From assembly GCA_025351245.1 (NCBI GenBank), contig JANXWH010000096.1, positions 1-39,004 on the forward strand: a DNA stretch of 39,004 nt, in the 5' to 3' direction. This DNA comes from Chloroflexota bacterium (lineage in GTDB: Bacteria > Chloroflexota > Limnocylindria > Limnocylindrales > CSP1-4). How positions within the stretch are numbered: the stretch's first letter is position 1; the number at the start of each line of letters is the position of its first letter. The notes under the pieces are model-generated. The model ran no database searches and was not told the DNA's origin. It was given only the letters and a program-made list of their open reading frames with translations. This document shows, in pieces, positions 17,202 to 34,423 of this stretch. The position numbers and the translations under genes were made by a program.

Positions 17202-17240
17202 GAGGCCCGCGACGACCCGCTCGTCGCGGGCCTCTTCGTT
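17202..17240 (+). terminator. Hairpin between binding-protein and ATPase genes
   Basis: GAGGCCCGCGACGA (17202-17215) and its exact complement (17221-17234) form a 14-bp stem with a 5-nt loop, followed by TTCGTT. It lies 12 nt after the lipoprotein stop. The T-run is poor for a full terminator, so partial termination or 3'-end protection giving excess binding-protein mRNA is likely. Confidence 0.75.
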
Positions 17241-23711: not shown

Positions 23712-23788
23712 AGCCGGGCACGCGAGCGGACATTGCGGAGCGCTGTTGACAGGCGCGTCCTGATCCCACTCACCGGAACGTGCTGTTT

Positions 23789-23854
23789 GTGCGCCACAGC
23801 CGGTTGGTAAGTCCGTCGTGGCCACGCTCGCATTACCAACCGGCTGTGGCGCAC
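23789..23854. repeat. 66-bp concentric palindrome (22-bp arms)
   Basis: A perfect 22-bp inverted repeat: GTGCGCCACAGCCGGTTGGT plus AA (23789-23810) against its complement at 23833-23854. The 22-nt middle contains a second palindrome, CGTGGCCACG (23817-23826), on exactly the same axis, with 6-nt non-pairing segments on each side. ACGTGCTG stands outside both arms (23778-23785 and 23858-23865), and TTGACAG further out on each side (from 23746 and 23874). It lies 77 bp past coaBC at the edge of the inserted secreted-protein pair. No T-run follows either arm. Confidence 0.9.
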
Positions 23855-23962
23855 GAGACGTGCTGAGATCCCCTTGACAGATCCTGCGAGGGGGGGACTA
23901 TTCGGCACCAGCCGATTGATTGATCGGACTCAGCGACGCGCACGATAGGGGAGCCAGATGGC

Positions 23963-24892
23963 TTGGGCGGGCTTGGGGCGAGGATGGCGTCAGCGAGCGT
24001 CGCCGCGTCGATGCTCGGACTGCTCCTGGCAGGAGCTCAAGCGAGACCCGTGGCCGCGACGAGCGGGTTTGATGTCCAACAGGGTTTGGACAGCTGTGCC
24101 GTCCCGACGGCCGCGCAGATGCAATGGGCATGGGGCAACACGCCCTTCTGGTCGTGGGGGTACTACCTCGGTGGTGCAACCGCCCCCCACGCCGGCTGTC
24201 GCCCGTGGACCGCGGCGGAACTGGCCCAGGCGCGTACGATCGGATGGGGGTTCATGCCGGTCTGGGATGATCTCCAGGCTCCGTGCAACCAGAACATGTC
24301 TCAGCACATCAGCACGAATACGACGACAGCGCGTAACCAGGGCGTCTCTGCTGCCACGAACGCTGCCGCGGCAATGCAGGCTGCGGGGTTCGCCGGCTAC
24401 GACCAGGTATGGCTGGATATTGAAGCCTACACTGGCTCTGGCGCCCCGGGGTGCACCGGAACGGCTCTCGCGACAGCGAGGGCCGCGGTAAAGGCGTACG
24501 TTGACGGCTGGTCGAGCACACTCGGAGCTGACTCGGGCGTCTATGGATCCTCGTACGGTTCCTTCGCGGACGACTGGGCGACGATCGCCCATCCGCCGGC
24601 AGAGGTGTGGCTCGCGGCGTGGGGCTCCCCGGCTGCCAATCCGAACACTGTCTGGAATCTCCCGGGTGTTCCCAACGGGCACTGGTACGTCGACCAACGA
24701 GTGCACCAGTACCGAGCTCATGTCGTCAACTACAGCGTTGTGGGCAACGCCCAACAGCAGACCGGTAGCTACGATGTCGACTGCCTCGCGGCATGGATGG
24801 ATCAAGGATCTCCATGGGACAACAATGGCGACGAGTCGAACGAAGGCAACTCGATCAACGCCGAGGCCGTATGTCTGGGGGCGCCTCAATGA
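23963..24892 (+). CDS. Secreted DUF1906 glycoside-hydrolase-like protein
   Basis: A 309-residue exported protein with a DUF1906 (Rv2525c-like, GH25-related) TIM-barrel domain, a family associated with cell-wall or envelope polysaccharide. A signal peptide covers about residues 1-33 (Arg7, then SVAASMLGLLLAGAQA). The domain starts GFDVQQGLDSCAVPTAAQMQ and includes WSWGYYLGGATAPHAGC, GWGFMPVWDDLQAPC and YDQVWLDIEAYTG, whose Asp and Glu are candidate catalytic residues. TTG 23963 keeps a positive n-region; ATG 23984 is the alternative. Codon use is looser (more A/T at third positions, many Asn/Gln/Ser codons) than its neighbours, hinting at transfer. Its stop overlaps the next start (ATGA). Confidence 0.85.
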   Translation: MGGLGARMASASVAASMLGLLLAGAQARPVAATSGFDVQQGLDSCAVPTAAQMQWAWGNTPFWSWGYYLGGATAPHAGCRPWTAAELAQARTIGWGFMPVWDDLQAPCNQNMSQHISTNTTTARNQGVSAATNAAAAMQAAGFAGYDQVWLDIEAYTGSGAPGCTGTALATARAAVKAYVDGWSSTLGADSGVYGSSYGSFADDWATIAHPPAEVWLAAWGSPAANPNTVWNLPGVPNGHWYVDQRVHQYRAHVVNYSVVGNAQQQTGSYDVDCLAAWMDQGSPWDNNGDESNEGNSINAEAVCLGAPQ

Positions 24893-26115
24893 ACCGATCC
24901 ATCTCGCCTCGACAATGCCTGATTGTCGCCATCTCGTCCCTGTTCGTGGTCACCGCGTGCGTCGGTGCGCCCGCGCCGGTGCCCGTCCCGAGTGGGAGTC
25001 CTGAAGCCTCCGCAGCGGCGACGGTTGCCCCGCCCCCGACGCCGACGGGCAGCATTCCGACGACTGCCCCTGTTGGCACGGGCCTGCTCGACGCTGGCCT
25101 CGCTCCAAACGGGATCGGCTGGGCGATCACGAGTCATGGTGTCGAGGTGTCGACGGACCGCGGGAAGACGTGGTCATCCGCGACCCCGCCGGGCGTGGAC
25201 CCGACGTCGATCAAGTCGGTCGACTTCGGCCTCTGGCCGACGGTCCACATGGCGGCGCCCGAAGGTGACCACGTCCGTGTGTTCGCTAGCGCGGATGGCG
25301 GCATCACCTGGACGTCCACGACCGGCCCGAAGGACGGCGCCCCCGACGGCTTCATGGACGCGAAGGTCCAGTTCATCGATGCGAAGAACGGCTTCGTCGA
25401 GGCCGTCTTCGCGACGAACACCTCGCAGAGCCTGGCGGAGCTGCTCCGCACGACGGACGGCGGGACGACCTGGTCCCCCGCGAACCTGCCGGTCGCCGGA
25501 CCAATCGAGTTCGGCAGCCCGACCGATGGCTGGCTCGACGGCGGCACGCTCGGCGGCCAGCTCTTCCGCACCGGCGATGGCGGCCGAACCTGGACGGCCG
25601 TGAAAATCGCGGTGCCGACGGCTGCCGCAGGCCACAACGCATGGCCGTTGCTACCGGCGATCATCGGCGACCAACTGACGATGCCGGTCGTCTTCGCCGT
25701 CGATGGTGGCGGCACGACGCTCCTCGGCGTGTACGTCAGCCATGACGGCGGGACAAACTGGGACCCGGCCGAACCGCCGACCATGCTCTCTGCCGACGGC
25801 TCTGGTGGCGCGATCGGCGCGGCGCCGGGACTCGTGCTCGCTGCCTCATCGACGGCGAAGGGGTTCATGTCGATCACGACGAGTCCCGGGTCGGGGGTAG
25901 CGCCGGTCACTCGGGAGCTTCCGTCGACCCACGGGAGCGGCTCCGCGACGAGCGCCACGGACACAACGTCCCAGGATCTCCATGTTCTCGCGGACGGCAC
26001 GGCTTGGTCGCTCGAGATGTATTCCGCATGCCGGGCCATCAAGGACTGTTCCATCATCAACACCCTATGGGCCTCCAGCGATCGCGGGGCAAGCTGGTCC
26101 GAACTTCATCCCTGA
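24889..26115 (+). CDS. Asp-box (BNR/sialidase-like repeat) lipoprotein
   Basis: A 408-residue lipoprotein: signal sequence with lipobox VTAC (Cys24) followed by a Pro/Ala/Thr-rich linker (about 27-62) and a beta-propeller built from Asp-box repeats. At least six are visible: DRGKTW, DGGITW, DGGTTW, DGGRTW, DGGTNW and DRGASW. Such propellers occur in sialidases and Ycf48-like assembly factors; no sialidase catalytic Arg triad or Tyr/Glu pair is evident, so a binding or scaffold role at the cell surface is more likely. Its ATG overlaps the stop of the DUF1906 gene, so the two are translationally coupled and probably act together on the envelope. Confidence 0.85.
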   Translation: MNRSISPRQCLIVAISSLFVVTACVGAPAPVPVPSGSPEASAAATVAPPPTPTGSIPTTAPVGTGLLDAGLAPNGIGWAITSHGVEVSTDRGKTWSSATPPGVDPTSIKSVDFGLWPTVHMAAPEGDHVRVFASADGGITWTSTTGPKDGAPDGFMDAKVQFIDAKNGFVEAVFATNTSQSLAELLRTTDGGTTWSPANLPVAGPIEFGSPTDGWLDGGTLGGQLFRTGDGGRTWTAVKIAVPTAAAGHNAWPLLPAIIGDQLTMPVVFAVDGGGTTLLGVYVSHDGGTNWDPAEPPTMLSADGSGGAIGAAPGLVLAASSTAKGFMSITTSPGSGVAPVTRELPSTHGSGSATSATDTTSQDLHVLADGTAWSLEMYSACRAIKDCSIINTLWASSDRGASWSELHP

Positions 26116-32788: not shown

Positions 32789-34423
32789 TCAGTGGCCGCC
32801 GTCGCCGAGACGGTCGAAGATGTTCGTCGTGACGCGTGCCACCCGTGCATCGGTGGGCGTGGTGCGGCCCCGGTAGGTGTGCTGGCCGAAGGTGTCGAGG
32901 GCCCAGCTCCACTGGAACGTGCCCGCGGAGACCACTGTGCCGCCCGCCGGCGTCGTGTAGACGGTCGCGGTGTGCACCGTGGGGTGACCCGTGGGGTCCA
33001 CTCCCGACTGGGGTGTCACGACTGGGCCCTGCGCCCAGACCTCGACGCCCGGCGGCGAGTCGGCCGGGTGCAGCGTGTCGTACTCCTGCCCGACGAGGCT
33101 CACGAAGCGGTCCCCGTCGCGGACGCCCGTCCCCTCGTAAAGCCAGTGGCCGGAATTGACCACGATCCAGTCGGCCGGGCTGCGGACCGCGTGGCCGTAC
33201 ATCTGGCCGATGACCAGCGATTCCGGCTTGCTCACGGGCGCCTGCCGCCAGTAGCACGTCGTCAGCTCCGGGTGCGTCGCCGTGATCGGGTCCCTGGTCG
33301 TCGATTTGTAGCAGATCATCCGGCGGCCGGGCCCCAGCGGCGATGGCTCGAGCCGCATCTGCCAGTAGATGCTGTTGGCGACGAGGAACGCGGCACTCGC
33401 ACCGGTCGCCAGCGTCGCCTCCAGCGTGTCGCGCATCGGCCGAGACCAGTACTCGTGGTGGCCCGCGAAGACGAGGAGCCGGCGGCCCCCCACGACCTCA
33501 GGGTGCATCTCGAAGTCGATGTCGGCGCAGTACGCCACGTCGCGGCCGTGGCGCTCCTGCCACCGGACGAACGCGGCCTCCCAGCGCGGGAGGTAGCCGG
33601 CCCCGCCGGCCTCGGAGTACGGCCGGTCGAAGCTGATCTCGTGGGCCCGTTCGACGGTCAGGCCGTGGAACTGGCCGGCCGGGATCGTCCCGTAGAACGA
33701 CGGGCCGTGGTGGTTGTAGGCCTGCCACGTCGCGGCCGCGCTCACGTACAGCACCGAAGCAGGCGCCACCGCGCCCGGCCGGACGATGAAGACGGCCGAG
33801 CCGGCGGTCCCTGCCGTCGGCTCGAGGACGACCACGTACATGCCGCTGGGCCAGTCGGGCGGGACCTGGATTCGCAGCACCTCGGGCCACGGCTCCTCTG
33901 AGCGGCCCGAGGCCGCGTCGACGACGGGTCCCGGCGAGAGCTTCGCGCGGAGGCCGCGGTCAACCCGCATGAGCCGTCCGCCCTCGCCCCCGTACCAGCC
34001 GATCCGGTACCAGCGGGCATCGAGGCGGGCATCCCCCCGGACGCGAAGGCCCAGCGAGTCGCCCGGCGCCACGGACGTCCGGTCCAGGTATCCGAGGACG
34101 GTCGCGGCGGTGCTGAGGCCGGCCTTCCAGCCCGGGTTTCCGGGCCGCCGGTTCTCGTCGGCGACGGCGCTCGGCAGGCGCGAGGGAAGCGGTCCAGGGA
34201 GGCTCGGGGACGGCGAGCCCGTCGCCGGCGAGGCGGGCGGCACCGAGGCGGCCGAAGACGGCGACGCGGAACGCAAGGGGCCCGTCCGATCGGTCGGGCC
34301 GCAGGCCACCAGGACGAGCCCGGCCGTTGCGGAGAGGAAGGCGCGCCGGGAGAGCCGACGGCCGGCGGGATCGCTCCCGCCGGCCGTCGGTGCCGTCTCG
34401 AGGTCGGACTGGCGTGCCACCAC
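32789..34423 (-). CDS. Tat-exported DMFase-beta-like protein
   Basis: A 544-residue protein resembling the C-terminal domain of the N,N-dimethylformamidase large subunit (DMFA2_C type). It has a twin-arginine signal (SRRAFLSATAGLVLVACG) with a possible lipobox, a Ser/Pro-rich linker, a beta-rich domain (about 120-225, including WYRIGWYGGEGGRLMRV) and a glutamine-amidotransferase-like core with VLYVSAAATWQAYNHHG, RPYSEAG, DVAYCADIDFEMHPEVV and VFAGHHEYWS. Dimethylformamide use is not implied; most stand-alone homologues are uncharacterised exported proteins. The start is uncertain: GTG 34423 or 34420 (TTG 34429 possible), none with a clear Shine-Dalgarno. It begins 22 bp after the glutamate dehydrogenase stop. 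Confidence 0.85.
   Translation of the reverse strand: MVARQSDLETAPTAGGSDPAGRRLSRRAFLSATAGLVLVACGPTDRTGPLRSASPSSAASVPPASPATGSPSPSLPGPLPSRLPSAVADENRRPGNPGWKAGLSTAATVLGYLDRTSVAPGDSLGLRVRGDARLDARWYRIGWYGGEGGRLMRVDRGLRAKLSPGPVVDAASGRSEEPWPEVLRIQVPPDWPSGMYVVVLEPTAGTAGSAVFIVRPGAVAPASVLYVSAAATWQAYNHHGPSFYGTIPAGQFHGLTVERAHEISFDRPYSEAGGAGYLPRWEAAFVRWQERHGRDVAYCADIDFEMHPEVVGGRRLLVFAGHHEYWSRPMRDTLEATLATGASAAFLVANSIYWQMRLEPSPLGPGRRMICYKSTTRDPITATHPELTTCYWRQAPVSKPESLVIGQMYGHAVRSPADWIVVNSGHWLYEGTGVRDGDRFVSLVGQEYDTLHPADSPPGVEVWAQGPVVTPQSGVDPTGHPTVHTATVYTTPAGGTVVSAGTFQWSWALDTFGQHTYRGRTTPTDARVARVTTNIFDRLGDGGH

Follow-up and report, generated by a model that had tools for sequence, protein, structure and literature searches.

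A 72-bp palindrome at a Chloroflexota coaBC-panB junction as a probable Mutator-superfamily mini-transposon

A concentric palindrome within a 39,004-nucleotide stretch of a Chloroflexota genome (the whole of which we call the window) is with high probability a non-autonomous mini-transposon (MITE) of 72 bp, in which two 25-bp terminal inverted repeats (TIRs) surround 22 bp of interior, an identification that we regard as secure on sequence grounds. Comparison with related genomes shows that its ends also bound the members of a transposon family, that autonomous members of this family encode a predicted DDE transposase resembling those of the Mutator/IS256 superfamily and carrying a zinc-finger tail, and that the family, as read from its flanks, inserts upstream of TTGACA (-35) motifs with a short and constant spacing. 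Our best call for the element is a Mutator-superfamily MITE. The family is apparently undescribed so far, and its transposase lineage scores far under the thresholds set for named families.

Anatomy of the palindrome

The preliminary description of this site gave it a concentric anatomy, and every component was recovered. Two 22-bp arms (23789-23810 and 23833-23854) pair without a mismatch across all 22 core bases and enclose an inner palindrome, CGTGGCCACG (23817-23826), which shares their axis and is flanked on each side by a 6-nt unpaired segment. Copies of ACGTGCTG lie at 23778-23785 and 23858-23865, exactly 3 nt beyond the arms, and TTGACAG occurs once on each side of the palindrome in the same orientation (23746-23752 and 23874-23880). 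No other perfect stem in the window is as long (the runner-up has 16 bp), the palindrome folds as a very stable hairpin (z -5.1), and the arm is found twice in the window even with three mismatches allowed, against an expectation of 0 from shuffles. The stem is followed by GAGACGTGCTGAGATCC and not by a T-run, in agreement with the earlier statement that this is not an ordinary terminator. Two other short-looped, perfect inverted repeats in the window, of 16 bp at 34355-34390 and of 14 bp at 17202-17234, may be terminators.

The bounds of the element were refined by its relatives, whose inverted repeats start 3 nt further out, at positions equivalent to 23786 and 23857. Since the register of the target-site duplication (TSD) is constant across elements, we delimit the window element at 23786-23857, 72 bp with a perfect 8-bp duplication outside. 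The left TIR (23786-23810, plus strand) reads TTT+GTGCGCCACAGCCGGTTGGTAA and the right TIR (23833-23857, minus strand) reads CTC+GTGCGCCACAGCCGGTTGGTAA, both 25 bp long and both matching the ends of transposase- and cargo-bearing elements in relatives. The right end terminates in C, the family consensus, and the left in T, while family ends mostly finish in C. Between the repeats lies the 22-bp interior (23811-23832), about two helical turns, which includes the inner palindrome. The two TSD copies stand 3 nt outside GTGCG, as in ten other elements, and an unoccupied site would be expected to read CCGGA-ACGTGCTG-AGATCCCCTTGACAG, with a single ACGTGCTG. With arms and duplication both perfect, the element is young-looking.

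Transposon ends and transposases in related genomes

The element's own genome (2.9 Mb, 94% complete, a fragmentary assembly of 243 contigs) contains the arm in the window palindrome and as two single ends on contigs C239 and C48, the former (L003) adjoining a Fic gene and a tRNA-Ile. Of the 107 family genomes, 21 hold ends with two or fewer mismatches, which are often paired in inverted orientation at distances of 0.6-5 kb, and public records place the hosts mostly among uncultured Chloroflexi bins. The preliminary description had proposed searching the arms against the genome and its relatives: they recur as TIRs of larger elements, and conservation as a lone coaBC terminator was not seen. 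We found no TIR in viral contigs, no DNA match in a plasmid collection, where the transposase was matched by its zinc tail alone, and no Rfam match in the window.

A weight matrix gathered 50 distinct ends, and in 13 paired ends we compared the 8 bp starting 3 nt outside GTGCG. Eleven of the 13 pairs agreed at 7-8 of 8 positions, always over 8 bp and in the same register. Eight duplications are identical (ACGTGCTG in the window, GGCCAACC at L067, GCGTCGGC at L113, CTCGCCAC at L116, GGCTAAGC at L117, CGGCCGAG at L128, CCCTCGAT at L132 and TGTGCGGC at L178) and three match at 7/8 (L115, L123, L131); the flanking 8-mers are unrelated at L107 and L130.

Three elements in three genera make up the 72-bp class (the window, G024:C158 and G141:C39), each with a perfect TSD and each present at one copy per genome, and a covariance model found no further 72-bp copies in the 107 family genomes or in 400 phylum genomes. 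Compared on the minus strand, the window interior matches that of G024 at 15/22 positions (P about 2e-4) and, less clearly, that of G141 at 10/22. The inner palindrome is not conserved in the two other elements and is probably incidental. Searches with the joined flanks of four elements returned no clean empty site; matches end short of the junctions, and in the nearest homologues the promoter region differs.

L248 (G002:C211) and L067 (G040:C63) have flanks 99-100% identical across bins of different genera, and G002 lacks the element-bearing stretch of L067, the gap falling between two copies of a 15-bp repeat; either mis-binning or recent transfer followed by deletion could produce this arrangement. 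L111 and L112, from Chersky isolates labelled Cellulomonas and Chloroflexi, have the same sequence in the region of the end; this suggests that contigs were mis-binned, and the Acidobacteria record L107 may be another such case.

Intact transposase ORFs of about 630-670 aa lie between family ends at L113, L114 and L178, and broken ones at L115 (one stop) and L116. In Pfam the transposase matched MULE (E 3.6e-5) and Transposase_mut (0.0044) weakly and, in the relatives' proteins, DUF4379 strongly; in NCBIfam the nearest named families were IS1249 (2.4e-6) and IS256, both weak. The MULE, Transposase_mut and IS1249 scores are all below curated cut-offs, and among NCBIfam matches listed up to E 10 there was none to ISKra4 or ISLre2 models. 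Residues D178, D254, C275xxH278 and E360 are conserved across four diverged transposases (39-60% identity), an arrangement of D, D and E with C(2)H that we take to be the DDE pattern and signature of the Mutator superfamily. An AlphaFold model of the transposase has a mean pLDDT of 54, too poor to confirm an RNase H fold. A literature search found, within the collection it covered, no report of DUF4379 paired with a transposase.

The family also carries passenger genes. Larger elements with a transposase and cargo bear an amidase gene (L113) or a GH10 glycosidase gene (L115), the latter within a 5-kb element (L115:1340-6368) that combines the one-stop transposase gene with its passenger inside a 7/8 TSD. 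Others have no transposase and carry single genes, lipoprotein-like at L067 and small membrane-protein-like at L117 and L131; L107 (Fic gene) and L130 (RibD_C protein) have neither transposase nor matching duplication. At L107 (285-1609) the Fic-domain gene sits between two identical 29-bp transposon ends, and the own-genome end at L003 likewise has Fic beside it.

The fragmentary own genome yielded no match to the transposase, so the window element either moved in trans or is a fossil. We infer movement in trans, in which a family transposase from an element since lost or unassembled would have recognized both ends and excised the mini-element, and pasting it in ahead of a glycosidase-like gene's promoter, with an 8-bp stagger, would have created the ACGTGCTG repeats. 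The palindrome itself would represent the two ends of a transposon after an internal deletion that removed nearly all the DNA between them. In G001, of the same genus, this end is fused directly to the C-terminus of the transposase (residues 569-643); this is an internal-deletion relic and illustrates a plausible route to the mini-element. A more ambitious interpretation, which we consider improbable, holds that the 72-bp elements of the three genera are one old lineage of minimal transposons of selected constant length, kept at one copy per genome because their placement directly ahead of -35 boxes turns them into portable regulatory or insulator elements, and that the transposase defines a new branch of Mutator, one with a zinc tail and a preference for promoters that mobilizes single passenger genes as well.

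The target rule and the coaBC-panB junction

Reading outward from the ends, TGTCA[AC] stands exactly 14 nt off in 16/50 ends, compared to a mean of 0.009 and never more than one in shuffled flanks, and the motif lies at 14 nt in 9 of the 11 TSD-bearing elements. As the motif is found on one side only and outside the duplication, it belongs to the target. At L132, TGTCAA-N6-CCCTCGAT sits further upstream, beside extra copies of the duplication. This locus (L132:250-380, G141:C39) has three CCCTCGAT copies upstream of the 72-bp element, with exactly 6 bp between TGTCAA and the first of them; insertion and excision may have recurred at this one target and left the copies as footprints.

In the window, TTGACA at 23874-23879 (plus strand) is the probable -35 box marking the target, although it lies 16 nt from the element end and the family standard is 14; we conjecture that a 2-bp change in the adjoining C-run would account for the difference. 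GACTAT (23896-23901, plus strand) follows at a spacer of 16 as a possible -10 box. The pattern.A...T occurs at spacers of 16-18 in 8 of 17 target flanks, the window GACTAT included (shuffles give 1.7, with 1/5000 reaching the observed count), and a test for a strong -10 consensus by mean score gave no significance. The TTGACA flanks are likely promoters. The left TTGACAG has no -10 partner, and its orientation relative to the element and its distance are wrong for the target rule; it is probably incidental, with only the downstream copy fitting.

That coaBC and panB are normally adjacent, as the preliminary description supposed, was borne out in genus mates, where the two genes overlap or abut. 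In the window they are about 2.7 kb apart, and the interval holds two genes, one glycosidase-like and rare, the other with BNR repeats (23963-26115). The former, an Rv2525c-like glycoside-hydrolase-domain gene outside the element (23984-24892, plus strand; Pfam PF08924, E 2.7e-15), has relatives in 2 of the 107 family genomes, its own included, and is presumably driven by the TTGACA/GACTAT promoter.

The position of a very stable hairpin between same-strand genes and near a putative promoter could also be read as a host regulatory feature, whether a large operator or an insulating or terminating hairpin between coaBC and the inserted gene. We think this very unlikely, because the site has an 8-bp duplication, its arm recurs as transposon ends at unrelated loci, no T-run follows, and conservation does not extend to the inner palindrome. 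A host origin is thus strongly disfavoured, and neither the operator nor the recombination site offered in the preliminary description gains support as the origin. A host role may have been gained after insertion, and we infer that any effect of the MITE on gene expression would be secondary to that event.

The preliminary description also placed the palindrome at the edge of an inserted gene pair, and one could suppose that a larger transposon, of which it forms one end, brought the two genes (23984-26115) into the junction. The pair is lineage-specific, the junction is a tight one in genus mates, and family elements do bear passenger genes. Nevertheless, both inverted ends and both TSD copies fall within 88 bp, the palindrome has a tight 8-bp duplication of its own, and the panB side shows no third family end (the best other sites in the window have 10-11/29 mismatches). 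The chance that the palindrome is such an end is slighter still; the mini-element precedes the putative promoter of a foreign gene and is not its carrier into the junction.

Relation to known mobile elements

The MITE assignment draws on TIRs at the exact ends, an 8/8 TSD, the lack of coding sequence and ends held in common with the autonomous elements L113, L114 and L178. Against the whole reading stand the 16-nt spacing to TTGACA, the T at the left terminus, the missing transposase match in the fragmentary own genome, the failure of the joined-flank searches to return a clean empty site and the poor transposase model. The 72-bp element is present at a single copy per genome, multiple copies being usual, though not strictly required, for MITEs. 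A REP/BIME moved by a REP-associated tyrosine transposase would likewise be palindromic, intergenic and short, yet we regard it as scarcely credible: there is a single palindromic element in the genome, its arms are too long and without a GTAG/CGTC-type tag, an 8-bp TSD is not expected from REP transposases, and its ends belong to DDE-type elements. The earlier suggestion of a mobile palindromic unit therefore stands in its MITE-like form and fails in its REP form. An integron attC or tRNA-linked attachment site was rejected, as the window contains no tRNA and the tRNA-Ile at L003 is not known at other copies.

Prokaryotic Mutator-like elements, as described by Guerillot et al. 2014, have inverted repeats of 18-39 bp with a terminal C and direct repeats of 8-9 bp (PMC3942029). 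Two lineages, TnGBS/ISLre2 (p-MULT 3) and, within p-MULT 4, that of ISKra4, choose sites 15-17 bp upstream of sigmaA -35 boxes and use either orientation if their inverted repeats are nearly identical (PMC3942029). Our family resembles both lineages in its 8-bp repeats, its near-perfect inverted repeats of about 25 bp with C as the usual last base, its insertion some 15 bp ahead of a -35 motif and the passengers of some members (PMC3942029). The direct and inverted repeats fit Mutator-like (p-MULT/IS256 superfamily) elements, and the fixed distance upstream of the -35 is a property of the family, the window copy being at 16 nt. In contrast to ISKra4 and ISLre2, the family transposase matches IS1249/IS256 weakly, and because no member matches an ISKra4 or ISLre2 model we keep the family out of both. 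Its DUF4379 treble-clef tail also sets it apart from the promoter-targeting p-MULT elements, and the p-MULT elements described in the portions of that source consulted include neither 72-bp mini-elements nor cargo elements that have no transposase (PMC3942029).

Like prokaryotic MITEs such as Coxiella QMITE1/2, the element combines TIRs and a TSD with a non-coding interior and would be mobilized in trans, but it differs from usual MITEs in being single-copy per genome, GC-rich and constant at 72 bp in three genera (PMC10969869). Prokaryotic MITEs span 50-500 bp, with Coxiella QMITE1 down to 39 bp, so the 72-bp size alone is not new (PMC10969869). Mobile insertion cassettes and Tn3-derived TIMEs are also non-autonomous, with inverted ends able to mobilize passengers, as the Fic, lipoprotein and membrane-protein elements would do here, although they depend on other transposase families (PMC4133298).

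The insertion event explains an odd palindrome and points to a family of transposons, apparently not described before, in a Chloroflexi group that has received little study. As a very small natural substrate, the 72-bp element could inform minimal end requirements. The target rule places TTGACA at exactly 14 nt, so sharply that sequence is enough to recognize it, and one more transposase branch beside the few known to aim at promoters would help to locate the targeting determinant. Insertions of this family would also mark promoters in uncultured genomes.
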